Assembly (NCBI GenBank): GCA_006739055.1 | Contig: AP019702.1 | Span: 5,419,388-5,483,387, forward strand | Direction: 5' to 3' | Origin: Allostella vacuolata | GTDB lineage: Bacteria > Pseudomonadota > Alphaproteobacteria > ATCC43930 > Allostellaceae | DNA length: 64,000 nucleotides | Shown: one piece after another, positions 3,212-10,977 of the stretch | How positions within the stretch are numbered: position 1 is the stretch's first letter | Layout of the letters: each line of letters begins with the position of its first letter | Notes under the pieces: generated by a model | What the model was told of the DNA's origin: nothing | What the model saw: the letters and a program-made list of their open reading frames with translations, nothing else | Databases searched by the model: none | Translations under genes and position numbers: made by a program

Positions 3212-4165
3212 TCAGATCCCGCTCTGCCCGATCGCCAGGAACTTCTCGCGCCGCCGCAGGCGCAACGCGGCGGCATCGAGCCCGCCGAGGCTGCCGAAGG
3301 CCGCTTCGACCGCGTCGCCCACCGCCAGCACGATCGCCGCCCGGTCGCGATGGGCACCGCCCAGCGGCTCGGGAATGATCTGGTCCGCGACGCCGAGCCG
3401 CAGCAGGTCCTGGGCCGTCAGCTTCAGCGCCTCGGCCGCCTGCTGGGCGTGCTCGCCGCTGCGCCAGAGGATCGAGGCGCAGCCTTCGGGCGAGATCACC
3501 GAATAGACCGCGTGCTCCAGCATCAGCACCGTGTTGGCCGTGGCGAGCGCGATCGCGCCGCCCGAGCCGCCCTCGCCGATGATGACCGAGACGAAGGGCA
3601 CGCCGACGCCGAGACCGCATTCGATCGCCCGCGCGATCGCCTCGGCCTGGCCGCGCTCCTCCGCGCCGATGCCGGGGTAGGCGCCGGCCGTATCGACCAT
3701 GGTCAGGATCGGCAGGCCGAACCGGTCCGCCAGCTCCATCAGCCGCCGGGCCTTGCGATAGCCCTCGGGCCGGGCCATGCCGAAATTGTGCCGCACGCGG
3801 CTTTCGGTGTCCGCCCCCTTCTCCTGGCCGATCACCACCAGCGGCATGCCCCGGAAGCGCCCGAGGCCGCCGATGATCGCGCGGTCCTCCGCAAAAGTCC
3901 GGTCGCCGGCGAGCGGGGTGAAGTCACTGACCAGGGCCGCGACATAGTCCGACAGGTGCGGCCGGTCCGGATGCCGGGCGACCTGCACCTTCTGCCATGG
4001 CGTCAGGCGCGAATAGGTCTGCCGGAGAAGGCGCTCGGCCTTGCCCTGCAGCTTCGCCACCTCGTCGGCAATATTGATGTCGGCAGCGCCGGGCAGGTGC
4101 CGGAGCTCTTCGATCTTGCTTTCCAGCTCGGCGATCGGCTGCTCGAAATCGAGGAAACTGCGCAT
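3212..4165 (-). CDS. accA: Acetyl-CoA carboxylase carboxyltransferase subunit alpha
   Basis: A 317-aa AccA. With AccD it forms the carboxyltransferase that moves the carboxyl group from carboxybiotin to acetyl-CoA to make malonyl-CoA, the first step of fatty-acid synthesis. The N-terminus [18 protein letters not shown] is the family start, so the ATG at 4165 is preferred over an in-frame start 21 bases upstream. The glycine-rich core [12 protein letters not shown] and the [10 protein letters not shown] block are intact. It lies 51 bases after xerD on the same strand and ahead of the antiporter gene. Confidence 0.95.
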
Positions 4166-4216
4166 GATGGGGCGGGGTACTAGCACAGGCAGGGCACGGC
4201 TGGAAACCGACCGCCC

Positions 4217-5167
4217 TCAGGCTTCCTTGCGGCGGCCCGGGCGGCGCGCGAGCGGATGGTGCGACTGCACCAGGCGGGTCAGGCGTTCGTCGGCGACGTG
4301 GGTGTAGATCTGGGTCGTGGCGATGTCGGCGTGGCCCAGCATCCGCTGCACGCTGCGCAGGTCGGCGCCGCCGTCCACCAGGTGGGTGGCGAAGGCGTGG
4401 CGCAGGACATGCGGCGACAGCCGGTCCGGGTCGAGGCCCGCCGCCAGGGCCAGTTCCTTCAGCAGCTGGCCGACGCGCCGGCGGGTGAGGCGCGCATCGG
4501 CGCCGCGGGACGGGAAGAGCCAGCGCTCCGCCGTCGCCCGCAAGGCGCCCTTCGGCAGGAAGGCCGGGCGCACCGCCATGTATGCCCCGACCGCATCGAC
4601 AGCCGAACGGGCCAGGGGCACCACCCGCTCGCGATCGCCCTTGCCGCGCACGACCAGCGTCGTCGATCCCCGCGCGACCGCGTTGACCGGCAGGTCGACG
4701 AGCTCCGACACCCGGAGGCCGCCGGCATAGAGCAGCTCGACGATCGCCACCAGGCGCGTCCCGTCGGGCACCGGCCGCAGCCGGGCCGCCGCCAGCAGGG
4801 CGTCGCATTCGCCGGCTTCGAGGATCTTGGGCAGCGGGCGGCCGAGTCGCGGCGAATCGATCCGGCTGGTCGGATCGTCCGGCCGCAGGCCCTCGGCGAA
4901 GAGGAACTGATGGAACTGGCGGATGGCCGAGAGGCGCCGGGCCGCCGTCCTTGCCGCCATGCCGGCGGCCCCCATGCGCGCCAGGTAGGCACGGATGCCG
5001 TCCTCGCTCGCCGAGTCGAGCCCCTCGCCGCGGGCCGCGAGAAATCCCGCCAGATCCTCCAGGTCCCGGCGGTAGGCGTCGTGGGTATTGCGGGCGGCCC
5101 CGCGCTCGGCCGCCATCATCTCCAGGAAGGTTTCGAGATGGCGACGCGCGAGGCTGGGGCCGGCCAT
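4217..5167 (-). CDS. xerD: Site-specific tyrosine recombinase XerD
   Basis: A 316-aa tyrosine recombinase that resolves chromosome dimers at dif with XerC. The N-terminal SAM-like DNA-binding domain covers about residues 5-95. The catalytic domain carries the Arg of the GGLRVSEL block, the HVLRHAFATHL block, LGH and the nucleophile in TTQIYTHV. The frame stays open 120 codons further upstream, but that stretch is arginine-rich antisense-like sequence; ATG 5167 matches the XerD N-terminus. It starts five bases after the stop of the 600-aa exported protein gene, which suggests co-transcription. Confidence 0.95.
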   Translation of the reverse strand: MAGPSLARRHLETFLEMMAAERGAARNTHDAYRRDLEDLAGFLAARGEGLDSASEDGIRAYLARMGAAGMAARTAARRLSAIRQFHQFLFAEGLRPDDPTSRIDSPRLGRPLPKILEAGECDALLAAARLRPVPDGTRLVAIVELLYAGGLRVSELVDLPVNAVARGSTTLVVRGKGDRERVVPLARSAVDAVGAYMAVRPAFLPKGALRATAERWLFPSRGADARLTRRRVGQLLKELALAAGLDPDRLSPHVLRHAFATHLVDGGADLRSVQRMLGHADIATTQIYTHVADERLTRLVQSHHPLARRPGRRKEA

Positions 5168-5172
5168 GGCGG

Positions 5173-6975
5173 CTAGAGGCCGGCCTGCAGGGCGATCTCG
5201 ACCGCGATGCGCCGGGCTGCCGCCGTCTCCTCGCCCAGGCGCAGGCCGTTGAGGGCGGAGAATGCGGCGAGCGGATGGGGCACCGACTCGCGCCCGAGTG
5301 CGATCAGGGCGAGCGCCACCTGCTCGCCCTGCCGGCTTTCGCGTGCCGCCGCCTCCTGGGCGAACCAGATGGCGGTGACGGAGGCCCGCACCGCGGCAGT
5401 CGGGCCGGCCGGATCCTGCGACAGCGCGATCCACTGATCGCTGGCGGCCAGATCGCCGAGCGAGGCCAGCAGCGCCAGGCCGATCGCGGTGGATGGGGCG
5501 GCCGGACCGCCCATGCCGGCCGACCATCGCGCCACCGCCTCCGCGTTCCAGGCCGGGCCGTCCTCACCCAGGGCCAGACGGAGCAGCGGCGCAGCGGCGG
5601 CTTGGGCCGCCATCGCCCGCTCGTCGCCCGGACGCCGGCCGATCAGGGTCAGCCACCGCATCGCGGTCCGGCTGTCGCCCACGGCCAGCGCGATGCGGAT
5701 CGCGGCCGGCGCATGCTCGGCCAGGTCGAGCGAGGGCGCGATCTCCCGCACCAGGGGTGCAGCGGCGGCACCATAGGCCAGGGCCGCCCCGCCGTGGCGG
5801 GCGTGCTGCCAGCCGGCCGCCAGGCGTTCCAGCCGTCGCGCCGGCACGAGTTCCAGCCGGGCCGCCTGGAACAGGACCGCCCGCCCGTCCGCTCCCGGAT
5901 GCCGGCCGGCATCGGTCACGGCGTCGGACAGCCGCTCGGGGGTGACGGGCAGCCCGGCATAGAGGCCGGCCAGCTGCGCGCCGTCGATCAGCCCAAGCAT
6001 GGCCGCCCGCTCGCCGGCGGCCAGCCGCATCTCGATCGGCAAGCGGTCCGCGCGAGCAACCACGGCCAGCGTCGCGGGCGATGCCCGTGCGACGGCCGCC
6101 GCGTCGATGGGGACGCCGGCATGAAGGGCGAGGAACGTTGTCACCGGATCCAGGTCGGCCAGGGACGCCGGCTTGTCGCCGAGGCCGACCGCGCCCTCGA
6201 CCAGGGCCGTGAACGCACGCCCCGGATCGATCCCCTGGTCGCGCAGCAGGTCGAGGCCGACGCGGACGCGCTCGGCGTGGCCGTCGACGGCATCGCACGC
6301 CAGGAGGAGCCGCCGCCAGAAGAGGTCGGTCAGGTCGATCTCGGCCCGGCGGGCCAGCTTGCAGCTGTCCGCAGCGGCGCCGCCCGCCAGGCCGGCCTCC
6401 GCGGCGGGACGCGCCCGCGGTCCATCGAGGCGCGCCTCCGGCACCGCACGGACGAGCGCCATTGCCGCCGCCCCGTCGCCCAGGGCCAGCAGCCCGGCCA
6501 GCCGGCGTTCCAGGAATGCACCGGCGGGGGCGCCATCGGGGCGCGCGACGGCCGACATCAGCAGGCGCCTGGCGAGGGCATGGCGTGCCGGCGTGCCGGC
6601 CGGGGCCGGCAACCGTTCGAGCAGCCGCCCGGCATTGGCCCAGCCGCTGCCCTGCCACAGGGTTGGGGGAAATCCGCCTTCGGCACGATTCCAGCCGGCC
6701 GATTCATGGTCGAGCGCCGGCAGGGGCCGCGAGGTGACCGTCGGTGGACGGGGGCGCGCCGTGCGCTCCTGCGGCAACGGGGTCGGCAGGGCGCCGGCGG
6801 GGGGATCGATCCGGATGGCCGGTCCCGCCGGCCGCGCGCCGGGCGGGCCCGGCTGCGGAACCGGCGAAGGGCCGGGCTGCGGCCCGAGCAGCGGCGTCGG
6901 CGGCGACTGGGCCCAGGCCGCAGTCGCCGCGCCGATCGCCAGTGTCAGACCCAGGCTAACGCGCCAGCTTGCCAT
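5173..6975 (-). CDS. Conserved-looking exported protein of unknown function (600 aa)
   Basis: I do not recognise this protein. It has a clear Sec signal peptide, about residues 1-23 ending AATAAWAQ, then a proline-rich linker to about residue 85. The rest is an alanine- and leucine-rich, probably all-helical body with TPR-like spacing. No catalytic motif is visible and cysteines are few. Its start overlaps the end of the 47-aa membrane protein gene by 20 bases, and its stop lies five bases before xerD, so the three are probably co-transcribed divergently from aroK. A periplasmic scaffold or binding role is possible but is only inference. Confidence 0.75.
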   Translation of the reverse strand: MASWRVSLGLTLAIGAATAAWAQSPPTPLLGPQPGPSPVPQPGPPGARPAGPAIRIDPPAGALPTPLPQERTARPRPPTVTSRPLPALDHESAGWNRAEGGFPPTLWQGSGWANAGRLLERLPAPAGTPARHALARRLLMSAVARPDGAPAGAFLERRLAGLLALGDGAAAMALVRAVPEARLDGPRARPAAEAGLAGGAAADSCKLARRAEIDLTDLFWRRLLLACDAVDGHAERVRVGLDLLRDQGIDPGRAFTALVEGAVGLGDKPASLADLDPVTTFLALHAGVPIDAAAVARASPATLAVVARADRLPIEMRLAAGERAAMLGLIDGAQLAGLYAGLPVTPERLSDAVTDAGRHPGADGRAVLFQAARLELVPARRLERLAAGWQHARHGGAALAYGAAAAPLVREIAPSLDLAEHAPAAIRIALAVGDSRTAMRWLTLIGRRPGDERAMAAQAAAAPLLRLALGEDGPAWNAEAVARWSAGMGGPAAPSTAIGLALLASLGDLAASDQWIALSQDPAGPTAAVRASVTAIWFAQEAAARESRQGEQVALALIALGRESVPHPLAAFSALNGLRLGEETAAARRIAVEIALQAGL

Positions 6976-7099
6976 CCGGGATCACCTTTTCGATGCGTTT
7001 CGTCGGTGCCGGCATGTCGACGAGCAGCAAGGCGCCGACGGCGGCTGCGGACAGGACCAGGACCACGGACGCGGCGATCCAGATGAACTTGCGGGCCAT
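6956..7099 (-). CDS. 47-aa single-pass membrane microprotein, unknown function
   Basis: A short open frame beginning ATG at 7099 encodes MARKFIWIAASVV at its start, followed by an alanine/leucine-rich membrane helix (about residues 5-27) and a charged tail PAPTKRIEKVIPDGKLAR. The positive N-terminus before the helix and polar tail after it are typical of a small inner-membrane or signal-anchored protein. It overlaps the start of the 600-aa exported protein gene by 20 bases, so translation is likely coupled. Two facts favour a real gene: high-GC codon use and a position at the head of an operon. It is easy to miss because of its length. Confidence 0.65.
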   Translation of the reverse strand: MARKFIWIAASVVLVLSAAAVGALLLVDMPAPTKRIEKVIPDGKLAR

Positions 7100-7123
7100 G
7101 AGGCAACTCCGGCCGCCGGGTGC

Positions 7124-7152
7124 TTGACGACTTCCGACGGCGTCTGTGTTAA
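7124..7152 (+). promoter_or_regulatory. Candidate sigma-70 promoter for aroK-aroB
   Basis: TTGACG, a 17-base spacer, then TGTTAA. The predicted start of transcription falls at about 7159-7161, next to the ATG at 7162. It lies in the 62-base gap between the divergent microprotein gene and aroK. Confidence 0.5.
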
Positions 7153-7161
7153 CTACGCGCT

Positions 7162-7860
7162 ATGGCGGCCGGAGGGCAGAATATCGGCGCCTCGGAGGCG
7201 ATACAACGCCACGAGGCGGATGACCAGCAGTCGGACCCGCCCGGGGACGCGGTGCAGTACGGGGACGGGGGGACGACGGGTTTGGTCGACAGGATGGCAC
7301 TGCCGCGGACGCTGGTGCTGGTGGGCCTGATGGGAGCCGGCAAGACGAGCGTCGGCCGGCGGATCGCGCAGCGCCTGGGCCTGTCCTTCATCGATGCCGA
7401 TGCGGAGATCGAAGCGGCGGCGGGCTGCACCATCGCCGAGATCTTCGCGCGCCATGGCGAGGCCGCCTTCCGCGACGGCGAGCGGCGGGTCATCGCCCGG
7501 CTCCTGGAGGAACCGGTCCATATCCTGGCGACCGGCGGCGGCGCATTCATGGACCCGGCCACCCGGGCCAGCATCCGCGCCCGCGGCATCTCGCTGTGGC
7601 TGCGCGCCGAACTGGACGTGCTGGTGCGCCGGGTCGCCCGCCGCACGCATCGCCCGCTCCTCAACCAGGGCGACCCCAAAGAGATCCTGACCCGCCTCAT
7701 GACCATCCGATACCCTGTCTATGCCGAGGCCGACATCATCGTCGACAGCCTCGACGCGCCGACCGAGACCACGGTGGAGCGCTGCATGGCAGCGCTCTCC
7801 GCCTATGTCGCCCATCCGCCCGCCGAGGCGATGGCGGCCGGCGTCGAGCCCCAGCCATGA
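7162..7860 (+). CDS. aroK: Shikimate kinase
   Basis: Shikimate kinase phosphorylates shikimate at the 3-OH in aromatic amino-acid synthesis. The P-loop [11 protein letters not shown], the DAD shikimate-binding motif, the GGGA block and the lid RTHRPLL are all present. Two starts are possible. ATG 7162 gives 232 aa with an unusual 44-residue polar extension and no Shine-Dalgarno site, but lies at the predicted transcription start. ATG 7294 gives 188 aa, the usual family length, with only a weak upstream purine run. The stop overlaps the aroB start in ATGA. Confidence 0.92.
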
Positions 7861-8996
7861 GCCCGGTGTCCACAAGCGCACCGGCGGCGGTCGACACCGT
7901 CCGGGTCGGGCTGGGCGAGCGCAGCTACGACATCCTGGTCGGGCCCGGGCTGATCGCCGATGCGGGGCCTCGCCTGCGGCCGATCCTGCCATCGCCGCGC
8001 GTCATCGTGGTGACCGACGAGACGGTCGCCGGCCTGCATCTGGCGCCCCTGCAGCGCGCGCTCGACGCCGGCGGGATCCGTCACGACACCATCGTCCTGC
8101 CGCCCGGCGAGGCGACCAAGGACTTCGCCCACCTGCAGCAGCTCTGCGAGCAGGCGTTGACGATGGGCATCGACCGCGGCGCCTCGCTGGTGGCGCTGGG
8201 CGGCGGCGTCATCGGCGACCTGACCGGCTTTGCCGCCAGCATCCTGCTGCGCGGCATCGGCTTCGTGCAGGTGCCGACCACCCTGCTGTCCCAGGTCGAC
8301 AGCGCCGTCGGCGGCAAGACCGCGATCGACATGCCGAGCGGCAAGAACCTGGTCGGCAGCTTCCACCAGCCGCGGATGGTGCTGGCCGACACCGGGACGC
8401 TGGCGACCCTGCCGCGGCGCGAGCGGCTGGCCGGCTATGCCGAGGTGGTCAAGTACGGGCTGCTGGGCGACCCCGCCTTCTTCGACTGGTGCGAGGCGCA
8501 CGGCGCCGCGGTGGTGGCGGGCGAGGCCGAGGCCGCGCGGCACGCGGTGGTCGCGAGCTGCCAGGCCAAGGCCGCCATCGTCGCGCGGGACGAGCGCGAG
8601 ACGGGCGACCGCGCGCTCCTCAACCTCGGCCACACCTTCGGCCATGCGCTGGAGGTCGAGAGCGGCTTCGCCGGCGGCCTGCTGCATGGCGAGGCGGTGG
8701 CGATCGGCACCATCCTGGCCTTCGACCTGTCGGTCCGCCTCGGCCTGTGCCCGGGCCAGGATGCGACCCGGGTCCGCCGGCACTTCGCCGCCGTCGGCCT
8801 GCCGACCGACATCCGTGGCATTCGCGCCGGCCACTGGACGGCCGAACGGCTGATCGCGCACATGGCCCGGGACAAGAAGGCCAAGGACGGCCGCATCACC
8901 TTCATCCTCGTCCGCGGCATCGGCCAGGCGTTCGTCGCGCGCGAAACTGCGATCGGCGAGGTCGCGACGCTGCTGGCCGACGCCATCGCCGCCTGA
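7857..8996 (+). CDS. aroB: 3-dehydroquinate synthase
   Basis: A 379-aa enzyme that cyclises DAHP to 3-dehydroquinate, using NAD+ and a divalent metal. The glycine-rich [14 protein letters not shown] block, the [12 protein letters not shown] block and the metal-binding region GHTFGHALE are intact. The start ATG at 7857 sits in an ATGA junction with the aroK stop and so is translationally coupled; the frame is open upstream but that part is aroK in another frame. The aroK-aroB pair is common in proteobacteria. A CorC-like gene follows after 18 bases. Confidence 0.96.
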
Positions 8997-9014: not shown

Positions 9015-10319
9015 ATGGAGACGCTGTGGCTGTCCGGGCTGGCCATCCTGGCCCTGCTCGTCCTGTCGGCGTTCTTCTCCGCCTCCGAGACGGCGCTGAC
9101 GGCCGCCTCGCGGCCGCGCATGCACACGCTGGCCAAGGAGGGCAACCGCCGGGCGCGGATGGTGGAGGGGCTGCATGCCGAGAAGGAGCGCTTCATCGGC
9201 GCCATCCTGCTCGGCAACAACGTCGTCAACATCACGGCCTCGTCGCTGGCGACCGGGGTGCTGGTCGGCCTGTTCGGCGAACGCGGCGTGGCCTACGCCG
9301 CCTTCGCGATGACGATGCTGGTCCTGGTCTTCGGCGAGATCCTGCCGAAGACCTATGCGATCCATCACCCGGACAAGGCCGCCATGGCCGTGGCGCCGCT
9401 GATCCGCCGGACCGTGCGCCTCTTCTCGCCGGTGACCCAGACGGTCCAGTTCGTGGTGAACGCCGCCCTCGGCCTGTTCGGGATCCATGTTCCCAAGGGA
9501 TCGGGCGTCGGCGTCTCCGTCGAGGAGCTGCGCGGCGCCATCGAGCTGCACGGGCGCGACGACGACGGGCCGAAGGAGGCCAAGCGCGAACGCGCCATGC
9601 TCCGCTCGATCCTGGAGCTGGACGACGTGGCGGTGTCCGAGATCATGATCCACCGGCGCAGCGTGACGACGCTCGACGCCGACCTGCCGGCGGAACGGCT
9701 GGTGGACGCGATCCTGGCCAGCCCGTTCACCCGGATCCCGCTTTGGCGCAGCACGGCCGACAACATCATCGGCGTCCTGCACGCGAAGGCCCTGCTGCGG
9801 GCGCTCAAGGCCCAGGAGGGAAAGGTCGACCGCGTCGACATCTCCGGCATCGCGGCGCAGCCATGGTTCATTCCCGAGACGACGACCCTGCTGGCGCAAC
9901 TGGAGGCGTTCCGCCGGCGGCGCGAGCATTTCGCCATCGTCATCGACGAATACGGCTCGCTGCGCGGGATCGTCACGCTGGAGGACATCCTGGAAGAGAT
10001 CGTCGGCAACATCGACGACGAGCACGACGTGGTCCTGCAGGGGGTGCGGCCGCAGCCGGACGGATCCTACATCGTCGCCGGCACCGTCACCCTGCGCGAC
10101 CTGGCCCGCGAGCTCGACTGGTACCTGCCGGACGAGAACGCCTCCACCATCGCCGGCCTGGTCCTCAACGAGGCCCGGATGATCCCGCACCCGGGGCAGG
10201 TCTTCGCGTTCCACGGCTTTCGCTTCGAGGTCCTGCGCCGCCAGCGCAACCAGATCACCACCCTGCGGGTGACCCCGCCCGCGCCCGGACCATTGACGGC
10301 CGACGACGCTTCGTCTTAG
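9015..10319 (+). CDS. HlyC/CorC family transporter-associated protein (CNNM/DUF21, CBS, CorC domains)
   Basis: A 434-aa membrane protein with the standard three-part layout. A DUF21/CNNM membrane domain covers about residues 1-185 with an N-terminal SAFFSASETALTAASRPRM block. A CBS pair follows, about 205-335, including FAIVIDEYGSLRGIVTLEDILEEIVG. A C-terminal CorC_HlyC domain covers about 350-425. Relatives are linked to Mg2+/Co2+ efflux or are of unknown transport role. It starts 18 bases after aroB and probably reads with it. The aroK-aroB-CorC order recurs in alphaproteobacteria. Confidence 0.9.
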   Translation: METLWLSGLAILALLVLSAFFSASETALTAASRPRMHTLAKEGNRRARMVEGLHAEKERFIGAILLGNNVVNITASSLATGVLVGLFGERGVAYAAFAMTMLVLVFGEILPKTYAIHHPDKAAMAVAPLIRRTVRLFSPVTQTVQFVVNAALGLFGIHVPKGSGVGVSVEELRGAIELHGRDDDGPKEAKRERAMLRSILELDDVAVSEIMIHRRSVTTLDADLPAERLVDAILASPFTRIPLWRSTADNIIGVLHAKALLRALKAQEGKVDRVDISGIAAQPWFIPETTTLLAQLEAFRRRREHFAIVIDEYGSLRGIVTLEDILEEIVGNIDDEHDVVLQGVRPQPDGSYIVAGTVTLRDLARELDWYLPDENASTIAGLVLNEARMIPHPGQVFAFHGFRFEVLRRQRNQITTLRVTPPAPGPLTADDASS

Positions 10320-10392: not shown

Positions 10393-10977
10393 ATGCCGCT
10401 TTCCACGCCCGAACCCCGTGACCACCTTCACACCCGCACCGTCGAATGCCGCGGCTACCATCGCACCGACGGCCTGTGGGACATCGAGGGGCACCTGGTC
10501 GACACCAAGAGCTACCCCTTCGACAGCAATGCCCGCGGGCCGATGCCGCCCGGCACGCCGGTGCACGACATGTGGATCCGGCTGACCGTGGACGACGAGC
10601 TGGTCGTGTGCGCGGTCGAGGCGGTCACGGATTCCAGCCCCTTCCCGGTCTGCCCGGCGATCACCCCGAACTTCCAGCGCCTGGTCGGCCTGTCGATCAA
10701 GACCGGCTGGACCCAGCAGGTGCGCAGCCTGCTGGGCGGGGTGGAGGGCTGCACCCACCTGGTGGAGCTGCTGGGGCCGGTGGCGACCACCGCGTTCCAG
10801 ACGATCTTCCCGTGGCGGGAACGCCAGCGCCGCGCCCAGGCGGCGGCCGGCGCCGCCGGCGGGCCGCAGCGGCGGCCCGCGCATCTCGACACCTGCCACG
10901 CGCTGGCCCTCGACGGGCCGGTGGTGGCCCAGATCTGGCCCGCCTTCTACACCGGTCCCCGCACCGAAAGCGCCTGA
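10393..10977 (+). CDS. DUF2889 domain-containing protein
   Basis: A 194-aa soluble protein that spans a whole DUF2889 domain. Recognisable blocks are RTVECRGYHRTDGLWDIEG near the N-terminus, DTKSYPF, and a central GLSIKTGWTQQVRSLLGG followed by GCTHLVELLGP. No function is known for the family. The conserved Cys and His (CTHL) could bind metal, but this is inference. It stands alone, 73 bases after the CorC-like gene, and the symporter gene starts about 105 bases later. Confidence 0.85.
   Translation: MPLSTPEPRDHLHTRTVECRGYHRTDGLWDIEGHLVDTKSYPFDSNARGPMPPGTPVHDMWIRLTVDDELVVCAVEAVTDSSPFPVCPAITPNFQRLVGLSIKTGWTQQVRSLLGGVEGCTHLVELLGPVATTAFQTIFPWRERQRRAQAAAGAAGGPQRRPAHLDTCHALALDGPVVAQIWPAFYTGPRTESA

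Follow-up and report, generated by a model that had tools for sequence, protein, structure and literature searches.

In the window, by which we mean the whole 64,000-nt stretch of DNA analysed here, two overlapping genes are placed between a divergent gene for shikimate kinase (aroK) and a co-directional gene for a tyrosine recombinase of the xerD type (Table 1). The first-pass annotation had described the first of the two as encoding a single helix of 47 aa and as overlapping, by 20 nt, a gene for a 600-aa exported helical protein with a proline linker. We found this description to be exact, including its coordinates, and the ORF positions bear out the proposed placement between aroK and xerD. 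Its statement that neither protein belongs to a known family agrees with our profile searches, in which neither the small nor the large protein of the window had a Pfam or NCBIfam match at E ≤ 1. The ATG of the large gene is formed by GAT plus G from the codons for Asp42 and Gly43 of the small gene. The large protein has a single match in its 5.83-Mb single-contig genome.

Table 1. Features of the overlapping gene pair and its neighbours in the window
Feature	Position	Strand	Basis or remark
Small gene: 47-aa single-pass membrane microprotein, predicted N-in/C-out, with a conserved, probably periplasmic tail (here DMPAPTKRIEKVIPDGKLAR)	6956..7099	-	Homologues, predicted helix, pN/pS
Large gene: 600-aa exported protein, predicted alpha-solenoid, without Pfam/NCBIfam family	5173..6975	-	
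Overlap of small and large genes, 20 nt	6956..6975	.	
Predicted Sec-type signal peptide of large protein, residues 1-22, AWA|QS	6910..6975	-	Read from translation by eye
Proline-rich low-confidence linker of large protein, residues 23-85	6721..6909	-	pLDDT about 50-67 up to residue 80
Predicted helical superhelical repeat domain of large protein, residues 86-600	5176..6720	-	Predicted structure
Cys205 of large protein	6361..6363	-	Invariant in alignments A2 and A3
Cys227 of large protein	6295..6297	-	Invariant in alignments A2 and A3
GGAG, putative ribosome-binding site of small gene	7107..7110	-	7 nt before ATG; read from sequence
AAGGTG within small gene, putative ribosome-binding site of large gene	6983..6988	-	7 nt before ATG
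xerD-type tyrosine recombinase	4217..5167	-	ATG at 5167, 5 nt past stop of large gene
aroK (shikimate kinase), divergent	7162..7860	+	Family match from residue 47

The aroK ORF carries an N-terminal extension of 44 residues (7162-7293, + strand) ahead of MALPRTL. Because the shikimate kinase family match begins only at residue 47, the true start of aroK is probably at 7294, which would leave a gap of about 195 nt to the small gene. The recombinase scored above the cut-off of NF001399 and below the equivalog cut-offs of both XerD (TIGR02225, 313.5 versus 329.6 bits) and XerC (265.4 versus 335.15). On the other side, aroK is followed by a gene that is presumably aroB-like (7859-8996), and beyond it come a CNNM/CorC gene (9015-10319) and then a gene for a DUF2889 protein (10393-10977, + strand). 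Rfam and tRNA scans of the window gave no matches, and a scan of positions 4100-7400 for consensus promoters and terminators, which says little, gave none of either.

We noted that the DNA is GC-rich and full of long spurious ORFs (96 of at least 40 aa in 14 kb), among which a 47-codon frame could be a chance ORF or an artefact of annotation. The first-pass annotation had staked the small gene on its frame being conserved in relatives, and it is. Among four genomes of the genus (L001-L004), pooled pN/pS over the 41 codons ahead of the overlap was 0.23, falling to 0.07 in the tail codons 28-41, whereas the other two frames over the same gene gave 1.34 and 4.60. Differences by codon position were distributed 84/33/16 over the third, first and second positions. 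Because of the low pN/pS, and because many families of the class share the frame, the C-terminal motif and the overlap, the comparison indicates that the small ORF is a real gene; against this conservation, the recurrence of the overlap and the codon-position pattern, a chance origin has practically no probability left. Selection also argues that the microprotein is translated.

The AlphaFold model of the microprotein has a helix at residues 2-26 followed by an extended tail modelled with moderate confidence (pLDDT about 66-72). The protein begins with a short positively charged N terminus, and net charge was higher on the N side of the helix in 86 of 87 small proteins, these being the ones among 133 whose matched peptide begins with Met. 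As the positive-inside rule thus puts the N terminus of the single transmembrane helix inside, the tail is expected to lie in the periplasm. Its consensus, of roughly 20 residues, is W-D-I-P-[AP]-P-x3-[VI]-E-K-V-[IL]-P-[DN]-x-R-F-P-R. When 22 members of the small family were searched against Pfam and NCBIfam, only weak matches were returned, the most frequent being NCBIfam Rv0361_Cterm (7 of 22, best E 0.0026); we took this match, DUF1634, CbiN and others for noise.

For the large protein, AlphaFold (with 88 relatives) predicted a helical superhelix over about residues 85-600, with pLDDT 89.8 and pTM 0.85; the model comprises 29 helices between residues 112 and 597 and hardly any strand, and residues 1-80 are of low confidence. 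The invariance of Cys205 and Cys227 would suit a disulfide in an oxidising compartment, and we regard the two residues as a possible disulfide pair. Searches with 26 relatives gave one weak Pfam match, TPR_9 (E 0.0015). The family profile A2 matched no PDB sequence at E ≤ 10, and the PDB matches of the single protein (E 0.28 and above) were taken for noise. In structural searches with the model, the best Foldseek match had an E of 0.0047, with none at E ≤ 0.001, and the best VIA Z score was 8.9, with many rows tied; the top matches were largely of the TPR/PPR type. The predicted model does consist of helical hairpins stacked in a superhelix, as in the TPR/PPR solenoid superfamily, and the protein has no TPR/PPR motif recognisable above a Pfam cut-off. 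Scores at this level are what helical repeats would reach through their common arrangement, suggesting a generic TPR-type likeness.

We found the large family in 258 of 387 sampled genomes of Alphaproteobacteria (174 of 263 genera). In a sample of 199 genomes across the phylum it was present in 28, all 28 of the same class. The small profile at E ≤ 1 matched 343 of the 387 genomes, many of them, we think, through any membrane helix, and small genes were instead accepted by adjacency to a large gene or by a match at E ≤ 1e-5.

In the first set of loci the small gene lies upstream of the large gene in 29 of 30 (the exception, L009, lies where its contig ends), a count that holds partly by construction, since 22 of these loci supplied the small profile. 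Among loci found with the large protein only (L031-L059), the small gene was upstream in 20 of 20 after removal of duplicates. A further 100 regions were fetched, 80 picked by a listed small match and 20 by a large match; they are selected samples and give no class-wide rates. The large gene was present in 73 of the 80 and absent from 7 (two at contig ends). The small gene was present in 15 of the 20 and absent from 5 (one at a contig end), and 18 of these 20 had no listed small match (L158 and L159 had one). Some of the 80 regions coincide with L031-L059, and so different sequences were counted instead: L001-L159 hold 133 different small genes, of which 126 adjoin a large gene and 7 count as lacking one, L061 and L073 among them merely lying at contig ends.

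Both the overlap and the neighbourhood, whose conservation the first-pass annotation had left to be checked, recur at the 126 loci with both genes. aroK is found at 122 of them and xerD at 116. The large gene's in-frame ATG is formed at the Asp/Asn codon of the tail ([GA]AT plus the next G, with rarer residues at that place counted too) in 98 of the 126 small genes, and among these the overlap is 20 nt in 92, 17 nt in 3 and 23 nt in 3. With profile rows excluded, the in-frame tail ATG was present in 77 of 104. Four genes (L043, L076, L119 and L138) have a tail ATG that lies outside the open frame of the large gene, and 24 have none. Judged by eye, the tail motif is clear in 19 of these 24 and loose in 5 (L140, L141, L150, L152 and L153); in genes without the tail ATG the Asp/Asn codon is AAC or GAC in 14 of 17. 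Since the motif persists without the ATG, and the Asp/Asn codon then ends in C, the comparison indicates that the tail is conserved for its amino acids as such and that the third-base T is the trace of the start codon.

A DNA pattern drawn across the tail and the ATG matched at least 119 stretches, and all 119 among the matches listed are small genes. The overlap in these is 20 nt in 114, 17 nt in 4 and 23 nt in 1, although, because the pattern requires the ATG, these figures speak for the family and do not show how often the overlap occurs. The large frame that opens at this ATG is complete, at more than 450 codons, in 88 of the 119 matches listed, runs off the locus in 26 and stops before 450 codons in 5 (L165, L168, L218, L246 and L277). 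Named hosts of the pattern matches include Azospirillum, Skermanella, Sneathiella, Kiloniella, Thalassobaculum, Telmatospirillum, Nisaea, Novispirillum and Oleisolibacter.

The location of the large gene's ATG inside the small gene, together with the SD-like AAGGTG ahead of it in the window, would be expected if the small ORF were a leader peptide, translated only to make the ribosome-binding site of the large gene accessible. Such a leader is hard to reconcile with the selection on amino acids, strongest in the tail, with a tail motif that stays clear in most genes devoid of that ATG, or with the conservation of the small gene where the large gene is absent (see below). Furthermore, an SD-like sequence precedes the large-gene ATG at just 52 of 102 loci by a crude test. 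We consider a leader very improbable. By the same crude test, the idea that the SD-like sequence drives the tail motif was not upheld, and AAGGTG appears to be a putative ribosome-binding site of the window and no general feature.

At the 17 most divergent of the loci retrieved (L310-L326), aroK was upstream in 17 and xerD downstream in 15, and a membrane ORF occupied the same place in 16 (L316 had none). Only L310, L311 and L323 matched the small profile at E < 1e-5, the other membrane ORFs having been called by position and hydrophobicity. The small ORFs of this group keep the membrane helix without the PAP...EKVIPDDRFPR tail. In several, the protein closes with Asp/Asn-Ala and one further residue (VVLNAD, VTLDAD) and the overlap is 11 nt; the first in-frame ATG gives an overlap of this length in L312, L318, L321, L322, L324 and L326.

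To see the two genes apart, we chose by eye 20 genomes with a small match at E ≤ 1e-5 and no large match, and a larger small profile matched all 20 at E ≤ 0.001. One of them (G218) has the large gene after all (E 7.7e-34); in the other 19, matches to the large profile were no better than E 0.02. Two hits, L294 and L299, were rejected as chance matches, L294 falling in a long unrelated protein. At 12 loci (L279, L280, L282, L283, L287, L289, L291, L293 and L295-L298) xerD comes next after the small gene, leaving no space for the large one, and the divergent aroK is present at 11 of them, L295 having no aroK match. The locus ends with the contig in L281 and L284, and L286 and L292 have no aroK or xerD match. 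Two 1.5-Mb genomes of the genus g173 (G223 and G298; loci L285 and L288) keep the small gene with no large gene, aroK or xerD beside it, and their larger relatives in g173, G362 and G423, have both genes. Conversely, the large gene occurs without the small one in L142 and in genus g68 (L145, L148 and L149); in L143, where the small gene is also missing, the locus is at a contig end.

Two loci without the large gene have oddities of their own. In L065 (G223:C1:453700-458700) no ATG-started ORF of at least 45 codons occurs in the roughly 1 kb after the small gene; of the ORFs past this gap, one is presumably COQ9-like and one presumably like ribosomal protein S21. In the small-only locus L297 (G385) a long proline-rich C-terminal extension replaces the usual tail.

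Purifying selection acts on the small gene also in the absence of the large one: pN/pS was 0.22, 0.21 and 0.17 in three pairs of such genes, and 1.09 in a fourth, L296/L289, which is distant and was compared without gaps. In a XerD tree of 134 loci (FastTree; 116 with both genes, 12 with the small gene only and 6 with the large gene only, the last including L009 and L143 at contig ends), there are 9 changes in the presence of the large gene, and the small-only label requires no fewer than three on well-supported branches; the tree has long branches, among them that of the small-only L297. Four families (f46, f116, f17 and f59) each contain genomes with and without the large gene, and in all four the small-profile E-values of genomes without it were, by eye, no worse than the range of relatives that have the large gene. 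Since the small gene is kept under selection where the large gene has been lost, we conclude from the comparisons that the microprotein is not merely an anchor or leader of the large protein. The first-pass annotation had proposed a membrane anchor translated together with a periplasmic partner. What stands of this is a conserved pair made of a microprotein with predicted N-in/C-out topology and an exported helical partner. What does not is the role of simple anchor, since the microprotein is maintained by purifying selection without the partner and the large protein in turn persists without the microprotein (in one genus and in L142); the picture is at best half of the story.

The pair might instead belong functionally with xerD, as an envelope element of chromosome-dimer resolution or division encoded in one operon. 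The 5-nt spacing between the large gene and xerD in the window, the xerD match at most loci with both genes, and the 12 loci where the small gene runs into xerD without the large gene are consistent with this, whereas in the two reduced genomes the small gene is retained although no xerD match adjoins it. We judge a link to xerD unlikely. A stronger candidate is that the microprotein serves another widely kept inner-membrane complex as a small subunit or as a regulator, while the solenoid acts elsewhere in the periplasm and the overlap only sets expression, with no contact between the two. Purifying selection in three of the four pairs without the large gene, survival of the small gene in the two 1.5-Mb genomes stripped of its usual neighbours, and the undiminished small-profile E-values in the four mixed families are all as such a subunit would predict. 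Set against it is the fact that, across the class, the two genes stay adjacent in a constant order and for the most part overlap; independent neighbour genes usually stay together less than this pair does. We regard this explanation as quite possible, if on the doubtful side.

The reading we put forward, tentatively and at somewhat less than an even chance, is that the tail of an inner-membrane microprotein binds both the solenoid and at least one other partner. The two proteins would be encoded together, with the overlap coupling their translation, and both would come to lie on the periplasmic side of the inner membrane, since the large one has a signal peptide and the charge of the small one orients it so. 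The helix of the microprotein would span the inner membrane and expose the tail to the periplasm, where the tail, as a peptide ligand, may be bound in the groove of the solenoid and so tether it, as a scaffold, to the membrane. Loss of the solenoid leaves the tail conserved, and for this reason the microprotein would be the core of a module with one or more further envelope partners, and the solenoid an accessory. Several observations speak against this reading: the tail does not look relaxed without the large gene, unlike what would be expected of a sole ligand of the large protein, and the large protein persists without the microprotein in g68 and L142. The pair L296/L289 with its pN/pS of 1.09, the moderate confidence of the modelled tail, the four tail ATGs outside the open frame of the large gene and the five pattern matches whose large frame stops early also count against it.

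A bolder form of the docking reading, which we think rather unlikely, makes the microprotein the ancestral core: a membrane stub carrying, throughout the class, a periplasmic peptide for docking, with a broadly kept envelope machine as its partner and the solenoid as an add-on adaptor. If true, the codons of the docking motif would also hold the start of the adaptor, uniting ligand and translational start in one 20-nt stretch in much of the class.

Overall, the comparisons indicate that the pair is real, old, unnamed and widespread in one bacterial class. In the literature searched, the locus was not found in titles or abstract openings, and claims of novelty are limited to that literature; passages of PMC7901474 treat XerD and vesicle proteins, not this pair. 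A back-translated contig search with the single large protein gave 67 pattern matches and no relative, and a plasmid search with an Azospirillum large protein gave no match. It is of interest that two class-wide families, as represented by their window members, escape Pfam and NCBIfam models despite adjoining two of the best-annotated genes, and that a protein of 46-47 residues has outlasted its larger partner and the adjoining genes, in 1.5-Mb genomes as well. This makes the microprotein a strong candidate for a component of the alphaproteobacterial envelope that has been overlooked, and members in genera with named strains make its function directly testable.

Coupled pairs of overlapping genes are a known kind, and so are small membrane proteins. 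What is new relative to the literature searched is a class-wide unnamed pair, a start codon within a conserved peptide motif and a nearly fixed overlap of 20 nt. As in termination-reinitiation pairs, the genes are co-directional and the stop of one overlaps the start of the other. However, PMC10666635 gives 1 and 4 nt as by far the most frequent overlap lengths, which counts against the docking reading, and here the overlap is 20 nt in nearly all genes with the in-frame ATG, the start codon lying inside a conserved peptide motif. The same paper describes an enrichment of short overlaps among genes for heteromeric-complex subunits, a point in favour of the docking reading.

The microprotein resembles AcrZ, CydX and YohP in having fewer than 50 residues and one helix, and several small membrane proteins of this sort act on larger partners. 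It differs from them in having no family match and in the strong conservation of its tail. The large protein shares its predicted stacked hairpins with the PDB matches LbcA (7rqf), AlgK (3e4b), the repeat domain of BcsC (5xw7), BamD (3q5m) and LapB (9up5), several of which are TPR-type envelope adaptors, and it departs from TPR/PPR alpha-solenoids in lacking a Pfam TPR match. Of these, LbcA of Pseudomonas, the partner of the CtpA protease according to PDB titles, is an exported helical-repeat adaptor of that protease in the envelope, and the large protein is likewise exported and predicted to be a helical repeat. LbcA, however, is a lipoprotein (PDB title), whereas the first cysteine of the large protein is residue 205, far from the signal peptide, and there is thus no lipobox; instead, the gene of a membrane microprotein adjoins that of the large protein.
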